This document shows, one piece after another, positions 14,846 to 43,411 of a stretch of 64,000 nucleotides of DNA. The notes below the pieces were generated by a model. The model did not search any database, was not told the origin of the DNA, and saw only the letters and a program-made list of their open reading frames with translations. This stretch comes from Trachipleistophora hominis (lineage: Eukaryota > Microsporidia > Pleistophoridae): NCBI GenBank assembly GCA_000316135.1, contig JH994045.1:28477-92476 (forward strand), written 5' to 3'. Position 1 is the stretch's first letter; each line of letters starts with the position of its first letter. The position numbers and the translations under genes are program-made.

Positions 14846-14975
14846 CATTCCTTGTCAGTGAATCTATTCCTTATCAGTGAATCTATTCCCTGTCAATAAA
14901 TCTATTCCCTCTCAGTGAATCTATTCCCTATCTAACATTCCTTGTCAATAAATCTATTCCTTCTCAGTGAACCTA
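14846..14975 (+). repeat. minisatellite, 19-bp period, at the 3' end of HIRA
   Basis: About six units like TCTATTCCTTATCAGTGAA with small changes. It abuts the stop codon of the HIRA gene (14973), so it lies in its 3' flank or 3' UTR. Confidence 0.75.
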
Positions 14976-20049: not shown

Positions 20050-20213
20050 ATAACAAGCCGCTCATACTTTTCTCTTAAGTAAAAATCTGTTTAATTACCT
20101 CCTTCATACACACTACCTAACCAACCAGCCGCTCATACTTTTCTCTTAAATAAAAATCTGTTTAATTACCTCCTTCATACACACTACCTAACCAACCAGC
20201 CGTTCATACTTAA
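20050..20213 (+). repeat. tandem repeat, 70-bp unit, upstream of Sen34
   Basis: Two full units and a partial third, containing CCGCTCATACTTTTCTCTTA, AATCTGTTTAATTACC and TCCTTCATACACACTACC. The unit resembles the left half of the ~100-bp dispersed repeat. It ends about 45 bp before the endonuclease gene. Confidence 0.75.
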
Positions 20214-21088: not shown

Positions 21089-21095
21089 TATAAAA
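21089..21095 (+). promoter_or_regulatory. TATA-like element of peptide-family member 1
   Basis: TATAAAA, first base 27 nt before the ATG at 21116. Confidence 0.7.
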
Positions 21096-21115: not shown

Positions 21116-21334
21116 ATGCATATTCTCTCACTTTTATTTTCTGTCATTGCAGCACGCGAAGGAGTAGCAAAAAAGAGTCAGCTGTTTAACCCCTTTAGTT
21201 CATGGAACCCTTTTGGCCTTAGAACACCATCACCGGCGGCAGAAATTGAAAAGGCTGCGATAAGACGAACGGCCGCTGCGAATGCAGCCGCGGCTGCCAA
21301 CGGATTTGGCAGCCCATTCACAGGGTATTTCTAA
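21116..21334 (+). CDS. small secreted Ala-rich protein, family member 1, 72 aa
   Basis: Member of a nine-gene family defined here; function unknown. The ATG at 21116 is preferred to the in-frame TTG at 21107 because it is 27 nt from a TATA-like element and opens a signal peptide, MHILSLLFSVIAAREGVA. The mature part has NPFGLRTPSP, the shared P-F then T/S-P turn, followed by the longest Ala-rich stretch of the family (AAEIEKAAIRRTAAANAAAA), which could form an amphipathic helix, and an aromatic/Gly tail GFGSPFTGYF. No Cys in the mature part. First of two plus-strand members; the next is 1.8 kb downstream. Confidence 0.75.
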   Translation: MHILSLLFSVIAAREGVAKKSQLFNPFSSWNPFGLRTPSPAAEIEKAAIRRTAAANAAAAANGFGSPFTGYF

Positions 21335-21429
21335 AATAAAGATTTGTAAATAAAAGTAATTTTGAATAAATTTTTTTGGATTACGCATTAATGCATAAAT
21401 TTTGTTTTTTACGAAGGAAAGGAGAGTTT

Positions 21430-21700
21430 GACGAACTTTTCATGTATTCATGAACCAACGGTCTATAAAGCCATATTGGGCGCTCAACGCACCAGGAGAG
21501 TTGATGTGGTGTGAGTGTAATTAACCAGACTTTCAAACGAGAAGAATATCTTCGTATGTTGTATGAAAGTGATACCATGAACCAACGATCGTCAAGGCCA
21601 CGGTCGGCGCTCAGCACGCCTGGAGAGTTTGTTTGGTGTGTAAGGAAATGTGAGGTGTTAATTAGACGGACTTTCAAGCAAAAAAAGATCTTCGTACGTA
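21430..21700 (-). repeat. two direct copies of the ~100-bp dispersed repeat, 130-bp spacing
   Basis: Reverse orientation copies at about 21430-21560 and 21565-21700, with ATGAACCAACGATCGTCAAG, GCTCAGCACGCCTGGAGAG and GGACTTTCAAGCAAAA. It begins about 95 bp after the stop codon of peptide-family member 1. Confidence 0.75.
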
Positions 21701-23155
21701 GTATTGAAGTGGTAATTTTGGTTTCTAGGCCTAAAATTACGCTGAAATATTAATTTAAAAATTAATACAACGCTGTACAGTACAGCCCCCATTTTATTTG
21801 AAGAAACATATTTAATTAATAATTCAACAATCCGTTCTTACGTGCATAGCTCATCATTCCAGTAAACAAGGATGCTAACAACCGATAAATCACTGCACGA
21901 CAATAAACACGTAAGAGTTAAGTTCCTTGCAAAATATAAATATTTTCATAATTTTTGGTTCGTTGTGCAGTAACCCGACATATTCCTTGTTATGTACATA
22001 GAAATCGTATTGTGATAGAAAATAATAAATGCATCAATCTGTCATGGTCATCTAGAATAAAATCGAGACTGCAAAAACAAATGCATTAACTTGGCAGGGT
22101 ATCACCTGTTACAAACACTAAGGCCATAGCAAGAAAGGCTAAAACGGCAGAGCACACACTATAATGCGTAACGCAAGCAAGAATTTGTGTGTAAACTCAC
22201 AGAACATTATTCCAACATAAGAACGTGGCAACACGAGATAAGGACAATCAATAGTAGCTACGATAGACTAAACAAGTCAAGCTATCAAAGAGCAGGTTGT
22301 AACCAACAAAGCTGGTATAACAGATAATCAAGTGAGATACTGCAAAATAATTTTCTTGGAAAGGAGCAGGCAACCACAATACAAAGGTCTTTTACTCAAT
22401 CCTTTTTATCAAGCGCACTTAGCGCCCGGTCATCGCAATCAAAAGCATAATTCATAAAATTATAGCTCCTTCATGTCACCATTAAATAAAGTATCCTCTT
22501 TAAACAACATAAAAGAAACCATTTAATACGTACTTTGTAACGTTTCCTTCATTTACTGCGCGTCAACGTCATTGATTGTCCATGCTAAGAAATGTAAGGT
22601 TACAATATTTTTAAGTTTGTCTTGTTGGATAGCGTTCTTATCACATTATGACTCGTATATTTAATACTTTGTGATATGTTACTTAGTAATACACACATAA
22701 AAATGTTTCAATATCAATCGCATTGAAGTGTTATAGCACCAATTTTACTGATACGAGAGAATGGAGCCATCAACATCTTAATTCACGTGTGTTGTCTTTT
22801 TGCCCGTTTTTATCGTATACAGCCAAAACATACAATGGGCATGCTGCAAAATAGATCACCAACAATCGTTAGAAAGTTAAAACATGGTAGTTCAAACAAC
22901 ATGCTGATTATATCGTACTTAAACGAACCGCATCTACAGTTGTTAACACTTGATACATGTTACAGGATATAAATAGATCAATAACTAACCGGTTCTGATA
23001 ACCACATTCATATGAAATGATACAGACAGTTATTTCGTGTAAACATTTTCATTTGTTTATTGTATTCCATGTCTTTTAACGTTTTGTTTTGGCCCAATGC
23101 CTTTTTTTTGTTACGGTGCGTGTATTGATTGATACTAAAACACGGGAAAATAAAG
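21701..23155. other. intergenic with possible coding relics
   Basis: GC is higher at about 22080-22460 and codons look less random there and at about 22745-22970 (plus strand), but frames are broken and no motif is recognisable. An inverted piece of the TTTATTTAATG repeat is at 22484-22507. No intact gene seen. Confidence 0.4.
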
Positions 23156-23164
23156 TATATAAAG
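23156..23164 (+). promoter_or_regulatory. TATA element of peptide-family member 2
   Basis: TATATAAAG; the TATA start is 25-27 nt before the ATG at 23183. Confidence 0.7.
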
Positions 23165-23182
23165 AGATGCATACGTATTTTT

Positions 23183-23362
23183 ATGCTAGGAAAAATAATT
23201 ACCATAGGCTTTGCTTTATTCACAGGTGTTTTCGCTGAACAGGAAATAAATAAGAAGGATAATTTGTATGGATATGGTGGTTATCCATTCATTGGATCGC
23301 CAGCTGCTTTGGGAACAGCTGCTGCTAGAAATGCAGCTATTGCGGCGGCCACGGGATTATAA
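23183..23362 (+). CDS. small secreted Ala-rich protein, family member 2, 59 aa
   Basis: Signal peptide MLGKIITIGFALFTGVFA, then a charged spacer (EQEINKKDN), GYGGYPFIGSPAALG, and an Ala-rich end AAARNAAIAAATGL. The turn P-F-x-G-S-P corresponds to the P-F/L...S/T-P element of the family. The ATG at 23183 is chosen over the upstream TTG frame start (23129) because the TATATAAAG lies between them and 25 nt before this ATG. It is one of the shortest members and has almost no tail after the Ala stretch. Function unknown. Confidence 0.75.
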   Translation: MLGKIITIGFALFTGVFAEQEINKKDNLYGYGGYPFIGSPAALGTAAARNAAIAAATGL

Positions 23363-23620
23363 GTAAAAATGTTTTGAAGCTGAACGTGTTCTTACACTTT
23401 TTGTAATGTTTAAGTGTTTTATTAACTTAACATTTTGTAGGTTTAATTTAAACTGCTCAGCATATTTTTAAATCATTGAGATATGCTTTTAATTCTACAC
23501 GTTTTTTCAATCGTTCATTCTACGGCAAAAGATCAACACGGTACATTTGCTTTATCATCTTATTGTGTTAATTTTACAGTAATTATCTTTTTATAGAACG
23601 TAGCTAAGATTTATTTAATG

Positions 23621-23668
23621 TAAGACTTGTCAGTCATAAGGAGTCGATCTTTAATCAATATATAACAT
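23621..23668 (+). repeat. dispersed repeat containing AAGACTTGTCAGTCATAAGG
   Basis: About 48 bp; other copies at 46113-46163 and 53457-53507. Shared core AAGACTTGTC, TCATAAGGAGTC and TTTAATTAATATATAACAT. In the first two places it lies within 200 bp of a TTTATTTAATG repeat, so both may be parts of one element. Confidence 0.65.
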
Positions 23669-23827
23669 CATTATAATAAAAAGTTTTTTAGAATTGGTCA
23701 ATTGAATGCGCATTTCAACAATTTCTTTTTAAGAAATGGTCAAGAAACTGTAAAGCATCTGTTCCACAGCATAAAAGAAATAGTTATAACGATTGTGATA
23801 TAAAACGTTAAATAACTGCTCTTATCG

Positions 23828-23885
23828 TTGTTTAAAGAGTATATTTTATTTGGTTATGACATGAGGGAGTAATAATTTTAGCATT
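23828..23885 (+). repeat. dispersed TTTATTTAATG repeat copy
   Basis: Diverged copy: TTTAAAGAGTATATTTTATT, then GACATGAGGGAGTAATAATT. Compare 10207-10256 and 43921-43972. Confidence 0.55.
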
Positions 23886-25434
23886 TGTGATTCAAGAGAG
23901 TTACGTTAAATGCTAGGATATATTTATAAAGGGCCACTTTCGGCACTCAGTGCACCTAAATATTGTGTCAATGTATATAAAAGAATGTAGTGATAATTAA
24001 ATGGGTTTTTGTGCAAAAAGTAGGTCAATAATATGTTTAAAACAATTCTACCAAAGCATGGTGAATACAACACTATAAAATGTTTTTCTCTCAATAGCAT
24101 AGCGCTAAATTCGTTTTTTACAATTGTTTGTCTTAGTATACTTATTATTCATAAATAATTATTTGCAAAAAGCGATAAAATAGCGTATGTAAATTAGTGG
24201 ACTAACCCTGTAAAAAAAAACAAAGTACCATTTATTATAAATTTTAAAGTAATAACGACGTATGTAAAAATTTTAATTCAAAACTATCAACTCTTACATA
24301 ATCATCTGATTCAGCCAAAAACATAATTTACAAATATTTTCTTTTAAATCAACAGCTCTTAGTTGATAATGTGGCGATTTTTCAGCCAACCACGCGAATT
24401 ATAAAAACCATTTACAAATTTTTCACCAATTCTTGTTATGGAAACGAAATTATGATGTATTAATTATTTGTTTGTAGTGATTGAATGCACGGCTGCTTTA
24501 GAATACTTCTTTAAAGCTTATATTATAAGTTTAAAGTCATAAAGAAACGCATTCCATCGTGAATGCACCCATTTTTATTCCTAGACAATATATAATTGTG
24601 TATAGGATGGAATCGCCGAGTTGACTAACAAGATATTGTGAACCAGAAGAGTATGTAAGAGATAATGTGGCGAATAAATGAAAATACTTTCTGTAAAGCA
24701 TGATATTCTAATGGTCTTTTATCAATGAAAATTGCTACTCGATTGATTAATGGCTATAAAATGTTATAACTAAGCTATGAAATCAATCAAGATGCAATAT
24801 AAAAGATAGATAACGTCAATGAAAAACTAATAGTTAGAAAACAAAATTAATGACGATAATAAGTACCAATCATGAGATGTATCTCGTGTAATTACCGATG
24901 TGTGCGAATGTTAGGCTCAATGAACCGATCTTTGCAGCACTTTCGTAAAGGAATCATGGATAAGTAACCAAAGAATATTGACCAAGTTAACGGAAGAGTT
25001 GTAATATTTTAATAACTCACTTTCTAAAAACATACACATCACGAGTTTATTCTTCATCCTGCTTTCATTAAGGCTATAATACTGTACACTGTGCCAATAA
25101 GTATCCCTATTATAGGTCGGTATGGCATTATAATGTTTGTTATTTATCGCCATAGGAGTAGCACAATAGTTGTTTTGTGTTAATTAATGATCAGCTTTCC
25201 TAATACTAAAGACTTGTTATTTATGTCAGTGGTAATTTATAGTATGATTATTTAGTTTTAAAGATTGATGTCACTGGTCTGCCACCATAATGTTGTGCCA
25301 GACTTATAGAATATAGGTTTATAAGTGAAAGAAATTTATTTAGCGAAGTATATCGTTCATCATTTACCTTAAATACTCTATTTCCCATTCATGCTGATCG
25401 CCTCAAAGTATCATTAAAAAACCATAAATCACTC

Positions 25435-25625
25435 TCCAGTGCGCTAGCAAATACCATTGCTTTGCCAATCTTTGGTTCAAGGAGATACATCAACATTTTC
25501 TATTGGCGTAGCGGTCGATACATGGCGCTCGGGTAAATCTTCTCGAAATGCAACGCAAGACCATGAACCAAAGGCTGAACAGGGCATGGTAGGTGCTAAC
25601 ATACCAGGAGAAGCATATTACCCAG
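25435..25625. repeat. inverted pair of the ~100-bp repeat around unique DNA
   Basis: Left arm CTCTCCAGTGCGCTAGC...CTTTGGTTCAAGG, right arm ATGAACCAAAGGC...GGTAGGTGCTAACATACC, facing inward around about 70 bp. Same arrangement as 10660-10900. The plus-strand open frame 25457-25648 is this structure, not a gene. Confidence 0.55.
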
Positions 25626-26277
25626 GTATTAGGTGGAATGCTGAATAATTAATTAAATATGTTTCTTAAAAAAAGCTGCAACGTGAGAAAAACACCTCAG
25701 ATACTGCGCTGACACGTTTTTGTGCGTTGCCTTTTGTTTAGAAGCAAATACGAGCTTTCGAACGAAATTAAATTCAGTTTTTTAGTTACTATCATGTTTT
25801 GATAAACCGACTAGCTCTGAGCGATTGTAATCGAGTTTCAATTTAATACGTTAATATATAAAAAGCTTAATGTGATTATAACAAAATTGAATTTGTTGTA
25901 CTCGTGCAATGCACGCTACGCATATTCATTCAGTTTGCTACTGAGAACGATTTTCTTAAAAAGCGTTCTTATTTATTCGTCTCTCACTATATAGATTCTT
26001 TTGATCCGCTGTGACTAACCTCATAGCTATTAGCCTTTGGCTTGTGCATCATCGAGAATCGATGATCGACACGGCTATGGTGTATGGTAATCCGCCAAAG
26101 ATTTACGTATGAAAGGTTTGATGTAGCGATGTGAGGTGTAACTGAAGTAGTAAATAAACTTAACTCAGTTGAAAAAATTAATACACCTAGAAATGTTAAC
26201 CACAACAACCAGAATCAGTAAAAATTGTTTGAGAACTAAAAATTTACTTCATTTCAAACAAACTATCGATGAAACAT

Positions 26278-26514
26278 CTAAGCTAGATATTTTGACGATA
26301 CATATGAGTACCTTGAAGCAGATGATACTGCTGAGTTTCTAGCTGCCTTTTCGGCCGCAACCTCGGCAGGACTAAAAGTAGAGGGCAAAAATGGGCTAAA
26401 AGGCGTAATAAGTTCGTTGCTTTTCATAGGCATTTTGTCTGTACCATCAATAGCACATACAACACACGAAAGTACGGTTGTTAGAGAACATAAAACTAAG
26501 TGTTTTACACGCAT
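26278..26514 (-). CDS. small secreted Ala-rich protein, family member 3, 78 aa
   Basis: Signal peptide MRVKHLVLCSLTTVLSCVVCA, then a polar spacer with Lys and Met, ITPFSPFLPSTFSPAEVAAE with two P-F turns and the conserved S-P-A-E, an Ala/Lys/Arg stretch AAEKAARNSAVSSA and an aromatic/Ser tail ending YVSSKYLA. TATAAATA begins 27 nt before the ATG. Longest family member. S-P-A-E-V-A-A is nearly identical to T-P-A-E-V-A-A of member 4 and T-P-A-E-A-A-A of member 5, the neighbouring genes on the same strand, suggesting these three arose by local duplication. Function unknown. Confidence 0.75.
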   Translation of the reverse strand: MRVKHLVLCSLTTVLSCVVCAIDGTDKMPMKSNELITPFSPFLPSTFSPAEVAAEKAARNSAVSSASRYSYVSSKYLA

Positions 26515-26533
26515 GTGGATGGAATGATGGTTC

Positions 26534-26541
26534 TATTTATA
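26534..26541 (-). promoter_or_regulatory. TATA element of peptide-family member 3
   Basis: Minus strand TATAAATA, first base 27 nt before the ATG at 26514. Confidence 0.7.
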
Positions 26542-28762
26542 TCCAGAATGATACATTTTTTGTTTTAATAGTAATCTATTATCTAAGTTATAGATTTTAA
26601 ACTATTGGTTTGTCGTATATGATATTTCTGCGTGCTTAGTTGTGGTCGCGATAATCGATGTTAGGACTATGATTCAATCGTTAATGCGTTTATGATACGA
26701 TGTGGAATGTTGATTCGTGGCATTTCGAAAATATCTTTTGAATTAAGAGAGCAGTATACAGCTTAATAAATGTTATTTAATAATATGTACGGAGCCATCA
26801 TCATATGTTACAATATTTTAATTAGTAATACATGCAAAAAGTAGCTAAGAATATAAAATGTTTCTATTTATTTTCTCAGATGGAGAACAACAATTTTGTT
26901 AAATGTGCCGTAGTAGTGTGGAAGTGTGGGAAATGAATTTAATTTGATTAATAATAACAAATTTGTTAAATTTTGTATTTTTATCAGGCGCTATGTTTCA
27001 ATACGTGCTTGTATTTTCCTGAAAACCCATAAAAATCTTAAATAGTGACGAGAATGGATCTTTTATTTGTGTTTCAACCCAACGTAAATATTATCCACCT
27101 CGATGGTTTTATTCCCGAGAAGTGCTCAAAAATAATGATGCTGCGCACGACTACAAAACGATAGATTAAAATTATAGTTTTTTGGGCTTACAAGTAGCCA
27201 GCGATCTATTTTTTTAAATCTGATAACTAAACCGATGTTGTATTTATAATAAATTTCATTAAACGGTACTTTCAGTCAGTTATATTTTCGAACAGATATA
27301 CGTGAGAATGCTACCCACTCTATCATTTAGGTATTAGTTGAGCGGGATCTGTTTTTAAATAAAGTAAACGTTTTACTGTTGTTGCTATTGAAGTGCTGTT
27401 TATTGTAAATCAAAAAAATGTTGTGAAAAATAAAAGAGTTTGAGTCAAAAAAAAATTAAAATACTATTTTTGAAAAAATCTCGCTAGTTTTAAGATGGAT
27501 GTCGTGAAAACCATAGATAAAAAGTAGATGGTGATAAAATTATATGATTTTCTCATAATATTCAAATATATTGTAGTATAAGCGCTATTTTAATTCTGTT
27601 CGTGAAAAGAAAATATTTCATTAAATATTTGAAGTAAAAAGCGCAGAAATACACTTTATTGAGATGAGTAAATTAATTATAACAATATAACATGCAAATC
27701 ATCTAAATTACGAAAGTATTATTTAATTATATAAAATAACATGCTATTTAGTGGATAAAATGGACAAGTTGCATGTATTAACAATTATTCGACCGATACA
27801 ACTCGTTATTTAGCATTACCTCGTATTTCATTTAAGATTGTGTTTATCGTACGATAGAAGACGCTTCTTATTATGACATAGATGAAAAATTATTAAGCGA
27901 TATGCAAGTTGATCATTTATTTGATTACTTGTATAGGTAATAGAAAGATTTGTATGGTAATCTTTAGGACAGTGGTTACTTTTATTTTTTATAGTTTTGT
28001 TCAGGAAACTATTCAATAGTACCAACGCACGGGAATAACTTATGATTTATGTTTTTCTTAACAAAAAATCAACTAATACTAAAGTTTAATAAACTAAACA
28101 GTCGACTATGTTTACTTGATTGAATGTCTGTTATATTGTAGTAACATAAGTATATGATGGACTGAACACTATTTAAACGCAATAATACGTTGAGACTGAA
28201 TAATACGGTTCAGAAACACTTTCAAGTAGATGCAAAAATAAATTAAATGCCTATTAAAGCTTATACTAAAGAATATTATGCCGTTTTTAGTAATTAACGA
28301 ATAGTATTGCTGCTGGTGCACTATTTAGTCTGTAAAATAGAAAACTGGGTTGATTTCTATCCGATAAGATAAATCTTTCGTTGTTTTTCATTTCGTTTCA
28401 TGTCGATCACTCCTTCGAAATCAATACTCTTCATTAAAGATTAAAAATTAATCTTTGAGCCGCATTGGTGTTGTTACTAAATATTTTTGATAAAAGATTG
28501 CTGAGAGGATTTAGGGATATGAAGAGCGAATAACAATATAAAATTTTTTATTTGCGCTTAAAATACAATACTAAGATATGTCCTATATTTATGGAGTAGC
28601 GGAAGTGAATAAAGATACTTTTAGTTAAGAAAACAAGCAATAACATTTAGTATTTTTTTGGAGTTATCCAATCGAGTACGAATTGTTTTTATAAATACCG
28701 AAATAATATGACATTACAAGCACAACCATCCCACAGGAAATCATTCATACAAATTCATTTAA
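26542..28762. other. intergenic, no gene
   Basis: AT-rich. Nothing with a promoter and a signal peptide or known motif. A diverged relative of the 330-bp element may occupy about 28290-28590 (CACTATTTAGTCTGT, AAAAATTAATCTTTGAG, GTTGTTACTAAATATTTTTG). Confidence 0.45.
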
Positions 28763-28990
28763 TTACGCACCATAACTAGTGGACATTCGCCTTGAAAATC
28801 GATAACTAGCAGCCCGACTGCCAGCGGCAGCCGCAGCTACTTCGGCAGGTGTCGGTTCAACACTTGGTGTCGATGGAACACCTCCCCAAAAGCCATCAAA
28901 GAACAAATTGCTATTTTTCACGTCATTGGCTGCCTCTTTATTGCAGAATACATATGTAAATACCAAGAAAATAGAAGTTAACAAATTCAT
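28763..28990 (-). CDS. small secreted Ala-rich protein, family member 4, 75 aa
   Basis: Signal peptide MNLLTSIFLVFTYVFC, a spacer NKEAANDVKN, FFDGFWGGVPSTPS, then EPTPAEVAAAAAGSRAAS, and a basic/aromatic tail with RFSRR. The four N-terminal residues MNLL are identical in member 5. TATAAAA starts 28 nt before the ATG. The pattern G-G-x-P-S-T-P then T-P-A-E plus Ala run fits the family consensus. Mature part has no Cys. Function unknown; an amphipathic Ala-rich helix is a reasonable guess. Confidence 0.75.
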   Translation of the reverse strand: MNLLTSIFLVFTYVFCNKEAANDVKNSNLFFDGFWGGVPSTPSVEPTPAEVAAAAAGSRAASYRFSRRMSTSYGA

Positions 28991-29011
28991 AGGACGATTT
29001 TACTCCTCTCA

Positions 29012-29018
29012 TTTTATA
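29012..29018 (-). promoter_or_regulatory. TATA element of peptide-family member 4
   Basis: Minus strand TATAAAA, first base 28 nt before the ATG at 28990. Confidence 0.7.
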
Positions 29019-32984: not shown

Positions 32985-33191
32985 TCACAATCCGACTCCA
33001 TATCCAAACCTACCACCCATAGGATAGAATGGGCTTCTAGTGGCAGCTACTGCAGCAGCCTCAGCGGGCGTTTGTGGATCTAAGGGATTACCATGAGTAC
33101 CAGCACCATACAACAACTTATTGATTTTGGCATTCTCGCCCACACACAATATTACTGGAGTACCTAAAATAAAAAAACGTAATAAATTCAT
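32985..33191 (-). CDS. small secreted Ala-rich protein, family member 5, 68 aa
   Basis: Signal peptide MNLLRFFILGTPVILCVG, spacer ENAKINKLLYGAG, then GNPLDPQTPAEAAAVAATRS with the P-L turn, T-P-A-E and Ala run, and a tail rich in Gly, Phe and Tyr ending FGYGVGL. TATATAAA starts 29 nt before the ATG. Shares MNLL with member 4. Downstream neighbour on the left is member 4, same strand, 4 kb away. Function unknown. Confidence 0.75.
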   Translation of the reverse strand: MNLLRFFILGTPVILCVGENAKINKLLYGAGTHGNPLDPQTPAEAAAVAATRSPFYPMGGRFGYGVGL

Positions 33192-33212
33192 AATAAGTCA
33201 GACAATTATTTG

Positions 33213-33220
33213 TTTATATA
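33213..33220 (-). promoter_or_regulatory. TATA element of peptide-family member 5
   Basis: Minus strand TATATAAA, first base 27-29 nt before the ATG at 33191. Confidence 0.7.
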
Positions 33221-33504
33221 CTTTTTTAACAAACGATTGTTACGCGTGAGTGAGATGTAACATGTATGAGACGAATGGCTTGTGTGATGATCTAGATTGT
33301 GTGTTAATGATGATTTGTGCAGCAAGAAAATAGCATAACACTGGACAAAAGAGATGACGGGATTGGCAGCCGCGTTTCACGTCGTTTTGATGCGAAACAC
33401 ATGAAGGGCGGTTATTGGTAACATACATCCTCAAGGTAAAATGAGATGCTATATATAATGTGTTTAGAATGTTATTCCCTCGTAAATTTTTACTCTTTTT
33501 AATA

Positions 33505-33575
33505 AAAATATATTTATTTATCACCACTGCACACTTTAACACACTCTTCTGGTCAGCCGGGACAGACCATGCCCG
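33505..33575 (+). repeat. ~100-bp dispersed repeat copy
   Basis: TTATTTATCACCACTGCACAC, then ACACTCTTCTGGTC, GGGAC and CCATGCC, lacking the CCTTTGGTTCATG end. Confidence 0.6.
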
Positions 33576-36500
33576 CCGTAAGTTTTACTTATTATGTCAA
33601 TATATTTGCATTTAATTATCGTATTATAAGGAAATTCAATTTAATTATAAAAAGATTTATGGCATATTTTGATTTGACAGGTACAATAAAACAAACCCTT
33701 ACAATTTAGTAGGGTGATTAATACGAATAATTGCAGATTACGAAAAACCACGGTTATTAATAATTACTAGTAACAGTGACTACAAGAATGAATCTATCAA
33801 GATATTGTTACCGCAGCTTATGCCTCGACCATGAGTGGAAATAAACACTTAAATGGTTATTACGTAATAATAACGAAAGCTGTTGGTTAAATAATTAAAT
33901 AGAATAGATCATAACAGTGTTAAAATGTTTAATATGCTGATTAGAAATTATTTTGTAAATTACAGCTAGTAATAATAAAATATTGTTAGATTTATGTTGT
34001 GTATTGCTGATGGTAAAATATATACACATGTCAAAAAATCAATATTATTAACTTCTACGTATAAGCAAAATTCTTTTGTTCTAAAACCTGAACAATTTGA
34101 TCATAAATAAGTATTTTAGCAGGACTAACGGGGTAAAAATACAAAAATCAATTTTATCTTGTATTATACTTTTGTTTATACTCAACATATGAATAACAAT
34201 ATTTATTATATTAGCACAGAATACAGTAATATATTACAGGTCAACTACTAAACTGCTGATATTGGCCATAAATCTGAGCTGCTTGCATTTTACGTTCCAA
34301 GCCAATTAAAAAGGTTTAATTACAATGTTATTAGTTTCAATTCAAGTATTTAAAAGTTTAATATCTTAATTTTTGTGTATAAGTATAAATACACCTGGTT
34401 CTGCTAAGAATATCGATATTTTACACGTTATTTGCGTGAAATAATTGGCTGTTTATTTATATTTTTCACATATTAAAATTCACCTGAAATTTCTTTTCCA
34501 ACAGTTTCATCACATCCAATCATCAATACAAATACGTTATTTGCTCCTGTCAAGATTACTACTAATTTCTTTTTCACTGATCGTATTGAATGCATAGTAA
34601 GAAAATATATAAAGACACTTACCTCGAACTCATTGAATATTACGGGTTAGGAGGCCATTACAATATTTTCAATCGTAATATTCAATGGCCCGCATCTATT
34701 ATTATTGTAATTTATCATTTTTCCCAATTTTAAATAATATACAGCCCAAATTTTCTAATATACACCTATTTAAAGCCGTACAAACGTATTACTGTTCAGC
34801 AAACAGTCGTTATGTAGGAATAGTTACAGCTTGCCTAAAGAAATTTACAAACCCATAATAAATATATTTTTATCAACAAGATGTCTAAAATTCACCACGG
34901 TATCTACGGTAAGATTTGTCTATCATGAAGGAAAAGTTTTACTTAATATATAAAATCTATTAAATACACCAACACGTAAAAAATGTTCTATAAAATGTTT
35001 CATCAATGATGAAAATTCTTAGATAGAATAGAAAAATTTTTCATTGCTGTCTTATTTTTTACCAATTTATTACAATCAAAGAAGTTGTACGCAAAAATCA
35101 AATAATAATCCATCTATTACTTTAAGTGCTGACAACTCAAAATATAAATAATTATTAAGTAATAACTGTTTACTGTTAGGATTGTATTCTCTTATAAATT
35201 ATCCGATAAAGTACCTCATGATAGTAATTACGACGAATATTGGAAGATGTTCACTTTTTTGCTATCAGCATAGGAACATAATTGTTATAAAATAATAGTA
35301 CACACTGTAATTAAATTATTTTCAATTACCTTTGATTTAATACACCGTTACTGACTTATTCCAGCATTACCTTTCCTTCCCTAAATCTACTTGGCATGTC
35401 ATCATGAGGACAATGTACGATATATTTATTGTTTATAAGCACTACTTCTGTTCCGTATTAAAATAGAGCAGTTTGAATTTTAAAGACCAGCCCAAGCCAA
35501 ATAACAGATACGCACCGTAAAACCTAAATGTGCCACACAAGGTAGATAAATAGAAAAGGAACAATAACATTAACATAGTATCGTATCATACAACAACATT
35601 ATTGATCATTATGGTAACTAAAGATATATTTCAAAAATTTATCATCGACATATTCACACGGCATTTAAAAAGAACGATCGTGTTTTTTTCCCGGTTTTAA
35701 GTTACTTTTACTCCGATGTTGTTAATGTAGTGATGTTTATAACTAAACATCACCAACTTTTTTCCAACTAAAAGCATCTTTACTCATTTTCTACAATGTC
35801 ATGACACATACAGACACTCTTCTGGTTTATTGATACTAATTGTAGCTGCTGGCCTCTGGTCCATAATATTTCATCGCCAAAAACCGCAACACATTTCTAT
35901 TTTTTGTTGCTCAAAAACATAAATAAGTAAAAAAATTTTGCCCCTGCGACGTCTGTACTTATCAGAATCATTTGTACAGTTCTTTCGCATTCCAAGTTCG
36001 TCTGAACTTGTACCCGACAGGGCCGGGATGACGAAAAGTGGTATACTGCAGCACGGACGATGACAGATGAATTGTCTTTTGCGGTATCTTTCTGACTGGT
36101 CTTGTAAATAAACTGTTTAGTTATTTATTTTTAAATTCTTGCTTTTTTACCTGTTTCTATGTGATTGGCGGTTATATTTCCAGTTTTATCATTTATTCAA
36201 ATGCGTTACCAGTCGATGGCAGACCTTCTGTAGAATCGACATTAATCGCTGCAAATTTTTGTGGTACCAATTTTCTTTTAACGGTTATTTTGTTGCAAAT
36301 CAATTTGTTTGCTTTACTGCGTTGCTTTCCTTCACAATGAGTTCTTCTGGGCATACCGCGCACATTGGCATCTAAGTTCTTGTAGCCCAGATTAATACGA
36401 AGACTTTTAGCTTAATTACGAATGGTTCATACGTTATACGTGTATCCACAATTTAGACAGTTACATGTTATTTAGTTTTATGTATTTTCTATTGGTTGTA

Positions 36501-38756
36501 AAATAATGAAATATAAAAACAAAGATTTTTTAGGCTTAGCATACGTTGTACATCCATTTAAAAATCATTTACTCGTTCAAATGTTTCCCCAACAAACTAT
36601 TAATCGTTTCTTTAAATCATTCTTCGCTAGTGATGTTAACATTAAATCATATATTTCCGTCGAGCGTTAACTAAATTATTTAATATGCATATGTTTTAAA
36701 CAAAGCTCTTTCAATACGAACGAATATGCACGTGTGATTGCCTTTTAATTAGTAGCATCACCATAACTCCTAATGTTATTGATATTCCAGCATAAGCACA
36801 ATGAGTATCAGGTGTTCATGTTAAAAGTAAAACTACGATCTGAAACAAGATACTTCAAAGAATAATTCAAAACAAATTCACAGTAAAAACTGCTGATTTC
36901 ATGCGCTTGATCTTCAAAATACAGGTAATAAAACACGTTGATTCATATTTTCACTTCATATATGAATGCTATTAATCAAATATACACAGTAATTTCATTT
37001 ATTAATATAAAAATTATTAAATTACTAACAATCGCGAAATTCGTGTATCCTGTCATCGGCTCAAACAATATTAACAAACATTACATCAGAACACCAACAT
37101 ACTCTACCACATCATGACTACCTCCGTTAAAATCGAATACATAGTGTCTAACAGGCCATTCGTAAAAAAATGATAATATTTACATCATATAATCACCATT
37201 ATAAAACATATTTTGTGACACTACCACTATATTTTGAAGTGTAGATGAAAATGTATGTTAATTTATTTTGTGATATTTCTTGTTTGTATCCGATCGATAA
37301 TAGATCTGCAGAAATACGGGTTAGGACATACAGAGGAAGGTGAAATAACGAATAAACTGAAGGGCGATAAAAATGTTACCATGAAATCGTTTGAATTTTG
37401 AATAAAAAATGATGAATAACACGCTTTCTGGATAATTAACGTATTTTTGTTGATAAATATTATACTTTTGTCTTAATATTAATTTAATTATTAAATTAAT
37501 ACAGGGTATTATATAGCCGTTACATTCGTTATATGATTATCGATCAGCTAATATTAATTCAGCTATTAATTTTAAGGTTAATTACATTTTTCATTATACC
37601 ATGCTGTTTCATTTTCTTACTTCTTTTTCCCTCGTTTATTTGTAAATCATATTTTACGTTGACGTTTCATCTGTATTATTTTTGCAACGATAACCGGTAA
37701 TTAAAATGCCCAATGAACAAAAATTTTACCTTTTCAATATGAGTTACTGGATGATAAAGGACTAGTGGTTCGTTAATGTTACAATTGTTGATAAACAATA
37801 CAGTTTTCTACGAGTTGTATATTTCAGTAAAAAATTATATTTTGGTTAATGAACAGTTGTTATTAATACTAATAAAAACGCTTATGTCGGTTAGTAGCGC
37901 ACAAAATTTAACTTTGCAAGCTATTGCTAATTAAATAACCAGCGTTATCAGCAACATTATTAATTTGCTACCATATTTGATTACATATGTTAAACATATT
38001 ACTAATTCTATTTCTACTGATATTTTCAATACATTAATAATTGTAACTTTTATCTTTACCAATGCATTTATTAACATTTTTTAATACTATGTACACTAAT
38101 AAAAAATCTTTTGTGTATACGGCAGTATCAATACAATATTAATCACGTATTATCAATTAAGAGATATTAAGCCCCATTGTTATGATTTGATACTCCATAA
38201 AAACGTTTTATTTATTCCTGTACACCTTATTTTTTTGAAGAAACATGTTTAATCAATAATTCAACCTTCTACAGAACACCTATTTAACATACTTTTCCTG
38301 GTATATTAGCACGTATCATGGCCCGTTCAACCTTTTGTTCATGATGTACACCTTACAACTTATACTTTTTTGGTCTACCAGGATCGGCTATAATCATCGT
38401 TTTCTAATTCATGAACTATGTTATTTATTAAAAAAAGTACAGATGAGGTAATTCTTGCCATTCTGATATAACACAGGGCACACGCTATTATTTAAAAAAT
38501 ATTGATAACGTATCTTAACCATTATCAGTACAATATTACGTTTTTATACTTCAAAAATGATGTAATACTGTGTAATAAGATATGAAAACTCCGAATCTAA
38601 TACTCATTCAAATCTTCTCTTCAACCAAAACCGCTGTTTTATTCTACACCGCACCAAAAACACTAACTGGTAATTTATGTAAATTTGGCTATATCATCAT
38701 ACTATCATTTTAGAAAAAAGTCTATTTATGTAACAAATACCAAAATTTACGTGTTA
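33576..38756. other. 5-kb gene desert with a few structures
   Basis: No intact gene. It contains an imperfect hairpin at about 34653-34690, a ~100-bp repeat relic near 35800-35870, a GC-richer minus-strand coding relic at about 35940-36415, a 23-nt palindrome at 37478-37500, and a diverged ~100-bp repeat near 38235-38400. The rest is very AT-rich. Confidence 0.45.
36196..36410 (-). pseudogene. possible coding relic, unidentified
   Basis: A minus-strand frame is open for about 70 codons with basic, Cys- and His-containing sequence (LGYKNLDANVRGMPRRTHC, then KLICNKITVKRKLVPQKF). It has no start codon in a credible position, no promoter, and ends at a stop near 36196. A second open piece upstream in the DNA (about 35990-36110, minus) contains HPGPVGYKFRRTWNAKELYK. 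Both differ from the AT-rich surroundings and could be leftovers of a transposase or host gene. I cannot name the family. Confidence 0.3.
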
Positions 38757-38984
38757 ATGAGCTTTTATAGCATGTTAAGGACCGGCTATGATCTTGATTG
38801 CCTTTTTCTTCAAAAGAATAATTTGATGTTCAGAGTTGCTTGGATAGTATTCGAGTATTTCAGATATTATAACGACTACAAATGCAAAAACGCGTTATAT
38901 GAGATCCTTCTCTATTATTTAATGGCACATTTCATACTCTCTAAAATATACAACAATAATAATAGCAAGTCTATGATCCAATAA
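38757..38984 (+). CDS. doubtful small ORF, 75 aa
   Basis: ATG at 38757 (MSFYSMLRTGYDLDCL) with a 75-codon frame rich in Tyr, Phe, Leu and Asn. No TATA element at the usual spacing, no C-run, no signal peptide. The composition is what AT-rich DNA gives by chance, but the frame lies directly before the gene at 39087 and has Cys, Asp and Trp in places, so it is kept as a weak candidate. Confidence 0.2.
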   Translation: MSFYSMLRTGYDLDCLFLQKNNLMFRVAWIVFEYFRYYNDYKCKNALYEILLYYLMAHFILSKIYNNNNSKSMIQ

Positions 38985-39058
38985 CAAAGTATGTTTTCTT
39001 GCCATTTAAACTTTAAAACGCGTTTAAAACGTAATCAAGCCTAAAACACAGGTAAACG

Positions 39059-39066
39059 TATAAAAG
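39059..39066 (+). promoter_or_regulatory. TATA element of the 211-aa protein
   Basis: TATAAAAG, first base 28 nt before the ATG at 39087. Confidence 0.7.
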
Positions 39067-39086
39067 AATCGGCGACGGTAAACAAA

Positions 39087-39722
39087 ATGTGGTCTACATT
39101 TTTCACTCTGGCGTTTGAGCGCTTGCTCAGTACGCAAGAACTAACTGTTTATGGAGAAAATAACAATTCATCTCACAACTGGGATGATGTTCTCACGATG
39201 ATTATAAGGCGGTTAATTCAATCAGGATTAAACGGCGCAGATGTTGAAAACGATAATGGAAAAAACAGCCATGTAGATAATAATGATGGTAATGATACTA
39301 CCATGGTTACTAACGACGATCATACTAATGTTGAGAGTCGAAAAAACAGTAACGACGATGAAAGTCACAATACTTCAACTAATACTTTCATTGATTTATA
39401 CCCGTACGATACAAAACAGCGAGGATTAAAATGTAAAAACTTTGAATGGTTCAATGTTCGTAATAATATGCACATTACAACGCTGGTTGATTCCAGTGCT
39501 GCACTTAACGCAACATCTTTACGAAACTGTGATGAAATCGTTGTTGTTAACACACCTGTTAGTACATGCAACGAAAGTTCATTACAGAACAGCAATGAAA
39601 TTACCAGTGTTAAAGCATTAAAAATAGCGAAAAATAAATACTCATCTGATGAAGGTACCACAAAAGATTGCCATCAGGAATATTTTACGTTATCAGATTT
39701 TACATTGCTATACGATTATTAA
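39087..39722 (+). CDS. Asn/Asp-rich hypothetical protein, 211 aa
   Basis: No family recognised. The start MWSTFFTLAFERLL is weakly hydrophobic and might be a poor signal peptide. Residues about 50-100 are a low-complexity tract of Asn, Asp, His, Ser and Thr (for example HVDNNDGNDTTMVTNDDH). The second half has short hydrophobic strands such as NCDEIVVVNTPVS and ends TLSDFTLLYDY. TATAAAAG starts 28 nt before the ATG, the signal of the secreted set. It sits between member 5 and member 6 of the small-peptide family but has no Ala-rich module. Probably a lineage-specific, fast-evolving protein, perhaps exported. Confidence 0.65.
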   Translation: MWSTFFTLAFERLLSTQELTVYGENNNSSHNWDDVLTMIIRRLIQSGLNGADVENDNGKNSHVDNNDGNDTTMVTNDDHTNVESRKNSNDDESHNTSTNTFIDLYPYDTKQRGLKCKNFEWFNVRNNMHITTLVDSSAALNATSLRNCDEIVVVNTPVSTCNESSLQNSNEITSVKALKIAKNKYSSDEGTTKDCHQEYFTLSDFTLLYDY

Positions 39723-40836
39723 CAATTAACGAGATAAATATTTTAGCATCAAATATTTCATTACAGTAAATAATTATGTTATCTTCAATAGATTTCATGA
39801 TCTATTCAACAATATTTGGCCTATTTTCTGCATATAACCCTATTCAAAGAAACGCCTTACCATTTACTATGCTTCAGTTCCCGTGTTCAAAACATCATTT
39901 TAACCACCAGATTGTTTCATGTTAAAAATCGACAGCCCATTATCTCCACTAAAAAATCAAAAAGTTAAATGTCTTAAATCACAAACGCACAGAGAATTGT
40001 CGTCAAATTACTGATGTTTTACACTGTTTATCGTCATAAACTCACGTCTTATTATCATAATGGCAAACAACGCGTTCAAGAACACTACGCATTGTCCATG
40101 AAACATAGATTTATAAAAAAAAAGAATGTGCCGCTCTTATAGATTGTAGCGTGAATAAGTAGCCAAAAAATACTACCTATATCTACTACTTGTTTCATGA
40201 AACTCTTTAAATGTGTTAATTACTTATTTTAAACATTATAAGATAAAATTTTTCTTTATGTATTGTGTACAAAACATAACTTACATTTAAAACTTCTTTT
40301 ATTTAAGATCACATTTGTTTCGTTCGTTTAGGTTTCCTATTCTTTGTTATTAATTAATCTCTCTACATTAAGCACAAGATATAAACGATTAATGGTTAAC
40401 AAAATTATCGAATGGTAATGGTTTATCAGAATATTACATAGCAAGTATTTTATGTAAGAGTTTTATATCATAAGGATTCAATGTTTAGTTAATATATAAC
40501 ATTCATTGGTAGATGTACAATAATTTGTTTGCAATTGCTATGAAACAATAAGTTTACTTCAACAAACTTTTATAAAAAGGCAAATTATCAACAGAATATC
40601 GACCGTTGAGTTATATATCACACATAAAATACGCTCAAGCTACTAATGTTACAAGATAATGCGGATAATATGCCAGATATGCTATGTTTACGATGTTTAT
40701 GATACAATAACGTTCCAAACTTTGTACCATTGTAACAAAGCGTTATAATGATATGTTATCATTGTAAAACGTTCCTTGTTACACCATCAACCTGTTATGC
40801 CATACTATGTTGCCACTTAACATGCCTCAGCCAAGG
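39723..40836. other. intergenic, no gene
   Basis: AT-rich; nothing recognisable on either strand. Confidence 0.5.
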
Positions 40837-40843
40837 TATAAAA
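40837..40843 (+). promoter_or_regulatory. TATA element of peptide-family member 6
   Basis: TATAAAA, first base 27 nt before the ATG at 40864. It lies inside the longer frame that starts at 40807, which argues against that upstream start. Confidence 0.7.
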
Positions 40844-40863
40844 ATACTCTATTTACGCATCCA

Positions 40864-41064
40864 ATGTATTTCATATCAATAGTTCTTACAATCATACTAG
40901 TCCTTAAAACAGTACTTTGTGCTCTCAGCAACGTTTTATCAGAACCTAACGACGTTATGAAAAACCCCATGTTTGAGCGAGCAGCTGGATTGAACGGAAA
41001 CCTTCCTTTTACACCTGTTCAAGAAGCTGCTAATGCAACTGCAGCAAATGCAGGCATGTTTTGA
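40864..41064 (+). CDS. small secreted Ala-rich protein, family member 6, 66 aa
   Basis: The frame is open from an ATG at 40807, but the TATA element at 40837 and the strong signal peptide MYFISIVLTIILVLKTVLCA point to 40864 as the real start. After a spacer (LSNVLSEPNDVMKN) comes GLNGNLPFTPVQEAA with the P-F-T-P turn, then NATAANAGMF at the C-terminus. The last five residues NAGMF recur near the end of member 9. First of four plus-strand members clustered within 2.6 kb (40864-43411). Function unknown. Confidence 0.75.
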   Translation: MYFISIVLTIILVLKTVLCALSNVLSEPNDVMKNPMFERAAGLNGNLPFTPVQEAANATAANAGMF

Positions 41065-41470
41065 CAATTCGTTAGCATATTTTACACTAAAACGTTTATA
41101 TTCTATTTTTATATTGGAAAATTTACCATGGTATGTTATTGTAATACATAATTTTAGTGTTTATAAAGAACATTTTGTTAAGTGTTGATCTGAGAGGATA
41201 ATAACTTAACAGTTCTAATCTCATATTAACTCTTCAAGGCAAAAATAATTACACATCAAAACGATATATTACACTGGTTGGTACCATTTTATATGATTAT
41301 ACTATAAACCATAATTAATTCTATTTATATCGTCATCAACGATCATCGTTCTACATCAGAATAATCAATTTCATATCAGCATGTGCGTCAAATATCACCA
41401 TTTAATACACCAATCCTGGGCTTACAAGCGGACTTAAGTCCATTTCCCTAACCATATCGTTTCACCATCC
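41065..41470. other. intergenic, no gene
   Basis: AT-rich spacer between family members 6 and 7; a weak GATCTGAGAGGATAATAACTT resembles the TTTATTTAATG dispersed repeat. Confidence 0.45.
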
Positions 41471-41479
41471 TATATAAAA
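41471..41479 (+). promoter_or_regulatory. TATA element of peptide-family member 7
   Basis: TATATAAAA; TATAAAA begins 27 nt before the ATG at 41500. Confidence 0.75.
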
Positions 41480-41499
41480 CATAGACAGCCTCTGTAAAA

Positions 41500-41697
41500 A
41501 TGCACATCTTTCAAATTCTAATCTACGCCTTATTCCTAATCACTTGTGAACTGGCACAAGAATTGAAGCGATACTCAGATATGAAGAACAGTTTTATGCT
41601 TGGATCGGCGATAGGATTGGATAATGTTTGTCCTACAACACCTATACAAGCAGCAACTGCGATTAGAACGTGGCCGTCAGGGATACGTGGTATATAA
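41500..41697 (+). CDS. small secreted protein, family member 7, 65 aa
   Basis: Signal peptide MHIFQILIYALFLITCELA, spacer QELKRYSDMKNSFMLG, then SAIGLDNVCPTTPIQAATAI and a short basic tail RTWPSGIRGI. The Gly-Leu plus P-T-T-P turn and following Ala pairs match the family, but the Ala stretch is the shortest and the mature part contains one Cys, so this is the most diverged member. TATA start is 27 nt before the ATG. Function unknown. Confidence 0.7.
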   Translation: MHIFQILIYALFLITCELAQELKRYSDMKNSFMLGSAIGLDNVCPTTPIQAATAIRTWPSGIRGI

Positions 41698-42267
41698 AGA
41701 ACATAAGTTATATGGCTATGTGGAGTATATTATTATGTTTTAATACATCGTTCATGTGGTATTTTCTAGTATTATTCCTTTAAACAATCCTTTCCTACTC
41801 GTATTAAATCTCATTCTTTCATTGAAATATATTAAATTGCCTTAATTGAACAGATAAATGCTATAATACGAGGGATATTTTAAAATGACCATGTATTTAA
41901 TAATTGAATAGGGAATGCTCGTCCGGTCTAAAAGCCTTTAAAATCTTTATTTTTTACTCAACCGGATATTACGGATCGTCTACCACCTGCATATTTCTTC
42001 CAGAGCACATTATCTAAGATATGCACCGTTCTTTTGCGTAACATTTCTACATCCCATAATCAATTAAATGCTGTTGAAATTGACGTACCAATCCGATATT
42101 GCCCTACAATCCTTCCACACGATACCAATCTTTTAGTCCATTTCACAGCAATCTATTAGAGCATTTCCAACCGAATTTACAACCACATACTATACTATAC
42201 TATACACTATTCTATTAGCACATTCTATATTATGCTCCAATACACTGCCATCACGTTTCACGTTCCT
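41698..42267. other. intergenic, no gene
   Basis: AT-rich spacer. A short CTATA tandem (ACTATACTATACTATACACT) is at about 42188-42210. Confidence 0.5.
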
Positions 42268-42274
42268 TATAAAA
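42268..42274 (+). promoter_or_regulatory. TATA element of peptide-family member 8
   Basis: TATAAAA, first base 27 nt before the ATG at 42295; it lies inside the longer frame from 42232. Confidence 0.7.
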
Positions 42275-42294
42275 TTCTGCAATACCTCACAGGC

Positions 42295-42474
42295 ATGCAA
42301 ATATTTCCATCTATACGTATTCTTGTCATTTTTACATATACATACGCATTACGACATCCCAAGGGCGAACATGTGTATGAAACGTTGCCGGGATTGGGCG
42401 GACCTTTTCCGATGTCGCCTGCTGATGCGGTTGCGAGTGCTGTTGAAAATAATGATGATGTGTTTGGGATGTAA
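42295..42474 (+). CDS. small secreted Ala-rich protein, family member 8, 59 aa
   Basis: The frame opens at an ATG at 42232, but the TATA element at 42268 and the signal peptide MQIFPSIRILVIFTYTYA favour 42295. The spacer LRHPKGEHVYETL leads to PGLGGPFPMSPADAVASAV, with G-L-G-G, P-F and S-P-A-D in the family order, then an acidic tail ENNDDVFGM. The acidic tail is unusual: other members end basic, aromatic or Gly-rich. Function unknown. Confidence 0.75.
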   Translation: MQIFPSIRILVIFTYTYALRHPKGEHVYETLPGLGGPFPMSPADAVASAVENNDDVFGM

Positions 42475-43176
42475 ATGATTGTTTTACAAGAATAAAAGTA
42501 TAAATTGTGATGAAAGTATAAAATAAAACAAAATATTGATTGTAATAAAAGTATGAATTGTAATAAAAGTATAAAATAAATTAAAATATAAACTGATATA
42601 GAAATCTAAACTGTTGTAAAACTTAAAACAATGATAACCAGTATGACAAAACAATATGAGAACATTAGATATACCTTATTCATTTGTGAAAGAAATTTAC
42701 TCTTTAAACATATTCTTTCAGATAGAATGTTTCGTATAATATATGGTGATTATCCGTTTATTTGTAATTTTCTAAAAATATGTATATGTTGTAATTAATT
42801 AAATTTATTTATCACACCTCCACACTACTACAGCACATGAAGTATATGTTGTAATATAGCATGCACAATCATGCAATGCATAAGTAAAACAAGTATATTT
42901 CTTGATCAGTTGTACAGCACATACTCACGAAACAGCAAGTTGTACTAAGCAATATACTGTTAAAAGAAATAAAAATATAGTAAAACATGATATTACCATG
43001 TTATAGCATATCAAACAAATATGTAACTTAAAATAATCGTACCAGCACTATTTTACAATACGTCATATATGCACCATATTGATACACAAATATAAACTAT
43101 GCATTATATACTGCCTATTACGAAACTTACATTCTAACCATTTCACATTTTAAAACATGTTTCACACCACGCCAAC
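42475..43176. other. intergenic with A-rich tandem
   Basis: About 42490-42620 repeats AATAAAAGTATAAATTGTA-like units directly after member 8; otherwise AT-rich without genes. Confidence 0.5.
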
Positions 43177-43184
43177 CATAAAAG
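43177..43184 (+). promoter_or_regulatory. TATA-like element of peptide-family member 9
   Basis: CATAAAAG, first base 28 nt before the ATG at 43205; inside the longer frame from 43157. Confidence 0.55.
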
Positions 43185-43204
43185 AACAACGAACCATTAG
43201 AACA

Positions 43205-43411
43205 ATGAAAGTATTATCAATAGCAACAATAATAATAAAAATAGCATTTGTGCACTGCAGATTTAGCAATCCTGGCAGCGAGTTAAGCGATTTAAGAAGG
43301 AGCGGGCTTGTGCATGGATTACAGGGACTAACGAGCGATCAGCCCTTGTCACCCTCAATGATTATGGCTAAAGCGGCAGCTGTCAATGCAGGTATGTTCG
43401 GTGTTAGGTAA
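43205..43411 (+). CDS. small secreted Ala-rich protein, family member 9, 68 aa
   Basis: Start at 43205 is chosen over ATG 43157 because of the CATAAAAG at the usual spacing and the signal peptide MKVLSIATIIIKIAFVHC. Spacer RFSNPGSELSDLRRSGLV, then GLTSDQPLSPSMIMAKAAAV with the P-L-S-P turn and Ala stretch, and tail NAGMFGVR. NAGMF is identical to the end of member 6. Last member of the cluster; the next gene is the histone H3 variant 1.5 kb downstream. Function unknown. Confidence 0.75.
   Translation: MKVLSIATIIIKIAFVHCRFSNPGSELSDLRRSGLVHGLQGLTSDQPLSPSMIMAKAAAVNAGMFGVR

Follow-up and report, generated by a model that had tools for sequence, protein, structure and literature searches.

A candidate family of nine small, apparently secreted Ala-rich proteins with TATA-like boxes in gene-poor DNA of Trachipleistophora hominis

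Nine small frames of 59-78 aa, all lying within the 64,000-nt stretch of T. hominis DNA that we analysed (the window), appeared to form a single family of secreted proteins. With a probability of about one half, we propose that this is a lineage-restricted family that arose by old local duplication, is expressed from TATA promoters of its own and supplies host-exposed peptides to the intracellular stages of the parasite.

The initial annotation had listed nine frames, and all of them were recovered with the same positions and lengths. Namely, members 1 (21116..21334, 72 aa) and 2 (23183..23362, 59 aa) were located on the forward strand, members 3 (26278..26514, 78 aa), 4 (28763..28990, 75 aa) and 5 (32985..33191, 68 aa) on the reverse strand, and members 6 (40864..41064, 66 aa), 7 (41500..41697, 65 aa), 8 (42295..42474, 59 aa) and 9 (43205..43411, 68 aa) again on the forward strand. 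The peptide pieces said to be shared between members (SPAEVAAE, TPAEVAAA, TPAEAAA, NAGMF and MNLL) had been quoted correctly as well. The frames totalled 1857 bases in about 22 kb, where the sole other ATG frame longer than 100 aa was a 211-aa ORF at 39087, so that they did make up the bulk of the coding content of this stretch. Their coding sequences were GC-richer than the flanking DNA; the G+C content of the window ranged from 28 to 42% per 2 kb and was thereby mostly lower than that published for Vavraia culicis (39.7%, PMC4435813). No Rfam families or tRNAs were found within the window. Two TLC-type ATP/ADP transporters were identified and CCC preceded some of the housekeeping-type ATGs, both of which fit a microsporidian. 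Judged from the sequence, it was nearly certain that the nine frames exist as real genes, and their expression is predicted.

A TATA-like box started 27-29 bases upstream of the ATG in all nine members, compared to 37 of the 2685 ATGs across the window. On the forward strand, the boxes were found at 21089..21094 (member 1, -27), 23156..23163 (member 2, -27/-25), 40837..40842 (member 6, -27), 41471..41478 (member 7, -29/-27), 42268..42273 (member 8, -27) and 43177..43182 (member 9, -28, with the sequence CATAAA), and on the reverse strand at 26536..26541 (member 3, -27), 29013..29018 (member 4, -28) and 33213..33220 (member 5, -29/-27). The frames at 40864, 42295 and 43205 had an additional in-frame ATG upstream, and it was the inner ATG that carried the box at -27/-28. 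A yeast-like TATA box whose spacing to the ATG is conserved has previously been reported for 194 T. hominis genes, and CCC for 977 (PMC3486916). The boxes described here were alike in type and position, and the part of that report dealing with the TATA-box genes did not name a small secreted family among them. With such a box standing about 27 bases upstream of every member, the mRNAs would be expected to start at or beside the ATG. A further upstream element common to the members was not found, the best 6-mers being present in four of nine and thus equal to random regions. Conservation of the box among relatives could be inferred for one protein, P0012.

Among ORFs of at least 55 aa, 14 had a box at -29 to -27, and 12 of these scored as secreted, namely the nine members and three of the five others. 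Among the 53 ORFs of at least 100 aa, the box was associated with a hydrophobic N-terminus merely as a trend (P 0.09), so the TATA box was rejected as a general mark of secreted genes; the association of CCC with the absence of a hydrophobic N-terminus in the same 53 ORFs had a P of 0.10.

The initial annotation had proposed that the nine members belong together, and several comparisons supported this, although the support for members 1 and 8 was weak. When the box, a hydrophobic N-terminus and the [ST]P..A motif were combined, precisely the nine members passed out of 185 small ATG frames. In 40 Markov shuffles of the window, 0.025 frames per window had all three features (maximum 1, observed 9), although the shuffled windows held fewer small frames (mean 108 versus 185 in the real one). 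Leave-one-out profiles were searched against 2862 frames, and the left-out member was the next-best match in seven of nine cases with full-length sequences and in eight of nine with the mature part, at E-values from 6e-6 to 0.76 for the members that were found, several of them weak. Members 1 and 8 were borderline in these runs. The weakest was member 1, which ranked tenth at full length and was missed with the mature part, and its membership was the least certain of all. The best non-member frames reached merely E 0.12-3.2 in the same searches, which gave no sign of decayed copies. Finally, hhalign matched members 6-9 with their relatives to members 1-5 with theirs at a probability of 88.9 (E 2.4e-6).

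The suggested common architecture stood in part: [ST]P..A was present in all nine members, and the preceding P-[FL] in seven, being missing from members 4 and 7 (28990 on the reverse strand and 41500). The presence of a signal peptide was assessed from hydrophobicity with a crude score, which was 2.3-3.6 in nine of nine members, while 15 of the 53 ORFs of at least 100 aa scored 2.2 or more; this agreed with the earlier claim of export, at least as an apparent property. Downstream of the putative signal peptide we identified a second motif, [KR]-x(2,3)-[LMV]-hydrophobic, again in all nine members (shuffle mean 1.6). It was rejected as a general export motif, since it was not enriched in further ORFs with a putative signal peptide: four of 15 had it (shuffle mean 2.9, P 0.31), as did five of 18 in a widened set (mean 3.5, P 0.27). 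The predicted mature peptides had 41-59 residues and no Cys in eight members and one Cys in member 7, unlike small secreted effectors of the Cys-rich kind. The cap S/T-P-x-[E/D/Q] was complete in six of nine members. In a structure model of member 4, a helix (residues 48-68) began directly after Thr47, at the T-P-A-E motif, with a pLDDT of 51-62 over the block; the whole model had a pLDDT of 59 and a pTM of 0.24, and no tertiary fold was predicted. At this low confidence, the motif resembles an Ala helix with a cap, followed by tails that are specific to each member.

The claim that the family lacked described relatives held in the sources that we searched. Pfam gave one weak match (E 0.67) in one of 17 sequences and nothing convincing, the PDB gave no matches, and no published description of such a family was found in the literature searched. 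In a database of 5.8 billion proteins, the matches consisted only of the window's own proteins and of relatives from other contigs. Seven single-protein searches of the accessible part of the genome matched this cluster alone, and five of the seven missed even the other members; since such searches were insensitive, further family members are possible. A DNA pattern for the motif had no match in the genome, the cluster itself included, and was hence uninformative. A microsporidian SSU rRNA model had no match in the accessible part of the genome. The family would be lineage-restricted as far as the protein searches reach.

The public proteins from other contigs matched seven of nine members: P0009 and P0010 were related to member 1, P0012 to member 2, P0007 to member 3, P0008 to member 4, P0004 to member 6, P0005 to member 8 and P0003 to member 9, and no relatives of members 5 and 7 were found among the 5.8 billion proteins. 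The initial annotation had named a lack of conservation in related species as a refutation; a check of this, run in part, spoke against such a lack, with relatives of these seven on other contigs. All eight pairs of member and relative ended at the homologous residue, and the relatives of members 1 and 3, 2 and 4, and 8 and 9 were located pairwise on contigs of equal reported size. Identity over six pairs was 64/110 in the signal peptide, 90/130 in the spacer and 137/161 in the core and tail (Fisher P 1e-6 for core and tail versus signal peptide). The two pairs of member 1 were omitted from this count because its last S-P is near the C-terminus and the boundary that sets off its core and tail was misplaced; with all eight pairs, the C-terminal part reached 155/183 versus 90/136 for the signal peptide (P 1.5e-4). 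The core and tail of member 8 and P0005 were identical (23/23). The C-terminal part was thus conserved relative to the signal peptide, suggesting that the copies with relatives were each kept under a constraint of their own.

In the proposed mechanism, the nine genes would have arisen by old local duplication, and each would be transcribed from a separate TATA-like box near -27, with the mRNA beginning at or near the ATG. The signal peptide would direct the product into the secretory pathway, and the exported peptide would consist of four parts: the motif basic-x(2,3)-[LMV]-hydrophobic, then a spacer, a short, capped Ala-rich helix and finally a tail, which is Gly/aromatic/basic or acidic depending on the member. 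The helix might be a scaffold or docking element shared by all members, and different contacts might be made by the tails, with the peptides being host-exposed during intracellular stages. As to function, we infer that they probably act at the parasite-host interface.

It is also possible, if doubtful, that the peptides are structural, self-associating blocks of an intracellular-stage coat (e.g., the plaque matrix of T. hominis) or of the spore wall, where Ala-rich helices and Gly/aromatic/Ser tails would pack into an amorphous matrix. Apparent secretion, the near-absence of Cys, the low-complexity Ala stretch and the Gly/aromatic tails would suit such a role, and conservation of the C-terminal part among relatives would be expected of assembly. 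The amorphous coat of T. hominis meronts extends into the host cytoplasm, and secreted hexokinases were its only protein constituents named in the portion of the report that describes it (PMC6460350). However, the tails and the charge (-4 to +4) varied strongly by member, which would be odd for a single polymer, and the location is itself conjectural. Host-exposed families have been reported to evolve fast (PMC5423893), unlike the conserved tails seen here, and a structural role would suit these tails equally. A combination in which TATA-controlled peptides were building blocks of a host-facing coat, with a shared capped Ala-helix scaffold and a partner for each conserved tail, seemed rather unlikely to us. 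We know of no modular peptide coat in microsporidia, and none was found in the literature searched.

The climb in identity from signal peptide through spacer to core and tail would also be seen in prepropeptides, where a divergent signal peptide and pro-spacer precede a conserved C-terminal peptide signal freed by proteolysis. We considered this improbable, given that inspection of the alignment by eye revealed no dibasic or other processing site common to all members and that the spacer had a conserved motif of its own. Small size, apparent secretion and richness in Ala could point to antimicrobial or membrane-disrupting peptides, and an amphipathic, membrane-acting Ala helix had indeed been suggested in the initial annotation. 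This idea found no backing in the helical moments of the Ala segments, which were inside the range of shuffles of the same residues in all nine members (no fraction below 0.05, the lowest being 0.08 in member 7 and that of member 5 being 0.79). With estimated cleavage sites, the mature net charge was negative in two of nine members and neutral in one, and so not clearly positive throughout. Because of these moments and charges, we regard the antimicrobial role as highly unlikely. Ala codons are GC-rich, and the frames were short and GC-richer than their flanks, as would be the case if they were chance frames or if patches of higher G+C in AT-rich intergenic DNA had produced them as an artefact of composition. 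The position of the boxes, the shuffle counts and the relatives that end at the homologous residue left this explanation next to no probability.

The favoured interpretation, a secreted family exposed to the host, has parallels in other microsporidia. Host-exposed proteins of Nematocida belong to the class of lineage-restricted secreted families. Large microsporidian gene families with signal peptides were defined by 10 or more homologues within a single genome and by an at least two-fold enrichment in signal-peptide prediction; 59 of 68 such families were absent or scarcely represented beyond their genus or species (PMC5423893). To the extent that this source describes them, NemLGF1 and NemLGF5 shared with the family reported here the apparent secretion, the lineage restriction (here as far as the searches reach) and the lack of a domain of known function, and the NemLGF families were likewise locally clustered, suggesting duplication. 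Nine members are known here against the published cut-off of ten per genome, and the proteins differed in being tiny and Ala-rich with a capped-helix motif, a likeness and difference drawn from descriptions and database searches. Furthermore, seven of nine members had relatives with conserved tails, whereas only 5-39% of the N. parisii members of the NemLGF families had orthologues in N. sp. 1, the distances between the species compared being different. In size class, the nine genes were similar to the small CDSs of 25-84 aa that had been missed by annotation in Encephalitozoon, all 32 of which were transcribed (PMC4589312). Those CDSs were found by promoter signals and conservation, and in the account given there they had CCC-like motifs and a predicted signal peptide in one of 32. 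Here, all nine scored as secreted, carried a TATA-like box and formed one family; the small ORF with its box was seen in nine of nine members and protein conservation in seven.

Microsporidian annotation readily misses small genes (PMC4589312), and the present case suggests that an entire secreted family can hide in DNA regarded as gene-poor and be findable through promoter position and signal peptide. A box at about -27 combined with a signal peptide may offer a route to more hidden secreted genes, although among the 53 longer ORFs the association was a trend only. If the peptides are made, they would provide a compact set for localisation, and their conserved tails would make partner searches feasible.

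All nine small frames of the initial annotation were present in the sequence (21116, 23183, 26514-, 28990-, 33191-, 40864, 41500, 42295 and 43205, members 1 to 9). Their total length was 1857 bases within a 22.3-kb stretch, where the single further ATG frame longer than 100 aa was a 211-aa ORF at 39087. G+C was higher in each member frame (0.39-0.48) than in the 200 bases on either side (0.18-0.38). This part of the window also contained repeats. Namely, two neighbouring 71-base copies, 97% identical, were located immediately 5' of the gene-poor stretch (20052-20193 +), and a 36-40-base dispersed repeat had three copies inside it, 88-92% alike and one inverted (21793-21833, 25635-25674 and 38230-38265). 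Diverged copies of a short element at 21447-21640 (65 bases, 75% identical, spacing 127), with a third, shorter copy at 25560-25597, were possibly a transposon relic.

When the 70 bases 5' of each member ATG were read, a TATA-like box was found at one common position in all nine. The pattern [TC]ATA[AT]A, with its first base at -29 to -27, preceded 37 of the 2685 ATGs in the window (1.4%), and nine of these 37 were the members. At 40864, 42295 and 43205 there was an extra in-frame ATG farther upstream; the box belonged to the inner ATG, in agreement with the earlier choice of start. By the usual TATA spacing, a box at about -27 implies transcription starting at or near the ATG. With every ATG counted and the box allowed in the wider range of -36 to -18, 15 of the 185 ATG frames of 45-130 aa had the box, 11 had it with a hydrophobic N-terminus, and the nine that also carried the [ST]P..A motif were exactly the members. 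The corresponding means in 40 Markov shuffles, which held fewer small frames than the real window (108 vs 185), were 1.6 for box and hydrophobic N-terminus (real 11) and 0.025 with the motif as well (real 9). No frame combined all three in 24 control stretches (123,108 readable bases; six stretches contributed none).

The members also resembled each other in protein sequence. The [ST]P..A motif, as previously claimed, was present in 9/9, and the alignment placed it C-terminal to a basic residue, x(2,3) and [LMV]-hydrophobic, found after the signal peptide in all nine (KKSQLF, KKDNLY, KSNELI, KNSNLF, KINKLL, MKNPMF, MKNSFML, KGEHVY and RRSGLV). Region-wise residue shuffles gave means of 1.6 for this basic motif, a pattern picked after inspection of the members, and 2.2 for [ST]P..A, and nine was reached in 0/5000 for either. 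In leave-one-out profiles the omitted member was the next-best of 2862 frames (window and controls) in 7/9 cases with full-length sequences and 8/9 with mature parts only, and the omitted members had E-values between 6e-6 and 0.76. In the full-length version, members 1 and 8 ranked 10, and member 1 was not recovered among the 2862 frames by the mature-part profile. Moreover, hhalign matched members 6-9 and relatives to members 1-5 and relatives (probability 88.9, E 2.4e-6), a match to which the signal peptides and the Ala content contribute.

In three profile searches covering 5.8 billion proteins, with E up to 10, every match was either one of the window's own proteins or one of eight others, relatives of members 1 (two), 2, 3, 4, 6, 8 and 9; none was found for members 5 and 7. 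The relatives of members 1 and 3 appeared to share one contig, as did those of 2 and 4 and of 8 and 9. All eight ended at the homologous residue. Across six member-relative pairs (member 1 left out), split at estimated cleavage sites, identical residues numbered 64/110 for the signal peptide, 90/130 for the spacer and 137/161 for core plus tail (signal peptide vs core and tail, P 1e-6; P 1.5e-4 for all eight pairs). The relative of member 2, P0012, had its predicted start 14 codons upstream. Since Tyr-Ile-Lys fell at -27 to -19, these residues would fit a TATATAAA box placed as in member 2. Seven single-protein searches of the readable genome (members 1, 2, 4, 5 and 9 and the relatives of 3 and 6) gave no match outside the cluster. 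These searches were insensitive, five recovering just the query or its counterpart and two one additional member each; therefore, further members may exist elsewhere in the genome.

An S/T-P-x-[E/D/Q] opening of an Ala-rich run has the look of a capped helix start. It was complete in members 3-8 and departed at the fourth letter in members 1 (SPAAE), 2 (SPAA) and 9 (SPSM). A low-confidence model of member 4 (pLDDT 59, pTM 0.24; no fold predicted) had a second helix from Pro48 to 68, directly after Thr47. The amphipathic Ala helix proposed earlier was not supported, as the helical moment did not show amphipathy. In seven of the nine, the last residues were Gly and then one or two others, mostly hydrophobic (GYF, GL, GA, GL, GMF, GI and GM).

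The box was also found outside the family. Of the 14 ORFs that were 55 aa or longer and had the box at -29 to -27, 12 scored as secreted by a crude N-terminal hydrophobicity score, namely the nine members and 3/5 others; the exceptions were 39087 (1.5) and 33428- (-0.4). Four box-bearing proteins of no assigned function (2748-3392 -, 11996-12295 -, 39087-39722 + and 56512-57318 +), three with a hydrophobic N-terminus, were further candidates for secreted genes. Among 53 ORFs of at least 100 aa (window and control stretches), the link between box and hydrophobic N-terminus was only a trend (7/15 vs 8/38, P 0.09).

CCCCCC stood immediately 5' of the ATG in the WD40 gene (18431-) and the PCI gene (48691); for histone H3 (44921), CCC lay within the 15 bases upstream of the ATG. 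PMC3486916 describes CCC upstream of the ATG as a microsporidian motif. The genome encoded two TLC-type ATP/ADP transporters, found in 0/14 control genomes (those named were bacteria and archaea), and a microsporidian SSU rRNA model had no match in the genome parts searched. The transporters, the CCC before some ATGs and the divergent H3 fit a microsporidian. This H3 (44921-45355 +; PF00125 E 1.2e-18, PDB H3 chains) adjoined the cluster, had an altered N-terminal tail and may represent a centromeric or variant form. Elsewhere, the 1152-aa WD40 protein (14973-18431 -) had long charged stretches and a VEQIDGQKVCGD segment repeated three times, and a putatively secreted 492-aa protein (51611-53089 +) had a short acidic EFKEQDEEIAGAVTLMK-like repeat, in roughly five tandem copies, C-terminal to its signal peptide. 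A membrane-anchored protein (53959-54459 -) with only weak P-loop matches presumably resembles the SRP receptor beta subunit.

No described family of this kind was found in the open-licence papers searched. Lineage-restricted secreted families of microsporidia are already known (68 families in 23 genomes, as given in PMC5423893), and the nine members are a new family within this class, unusual in its size, its motif and the uniformity of its promoters. Small genes that annotation had missed were transcribed in Encephalitozoon (32/32, PMC4589312), and PMC4654818 gives 292 T. hominis transcripts that ORF prediction had not called, 97 of the 292 without an ORF. Judging from sequence, the products are likely secreted; we infer their place and partner. 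Tails were conserved between relatives and different between paralogues, which argues that each gene copy has its own job. Signal peptides, clade-specific genes and members of expanded families were over-represented among the host-exposed proteins of Nematocida (PMC5423893), and T. hominis has an amorphous coat reaching into the host cytoplasm (PMC6460350). An own job for each copy would suit host-exposed peptides with differing partners, or coat components.
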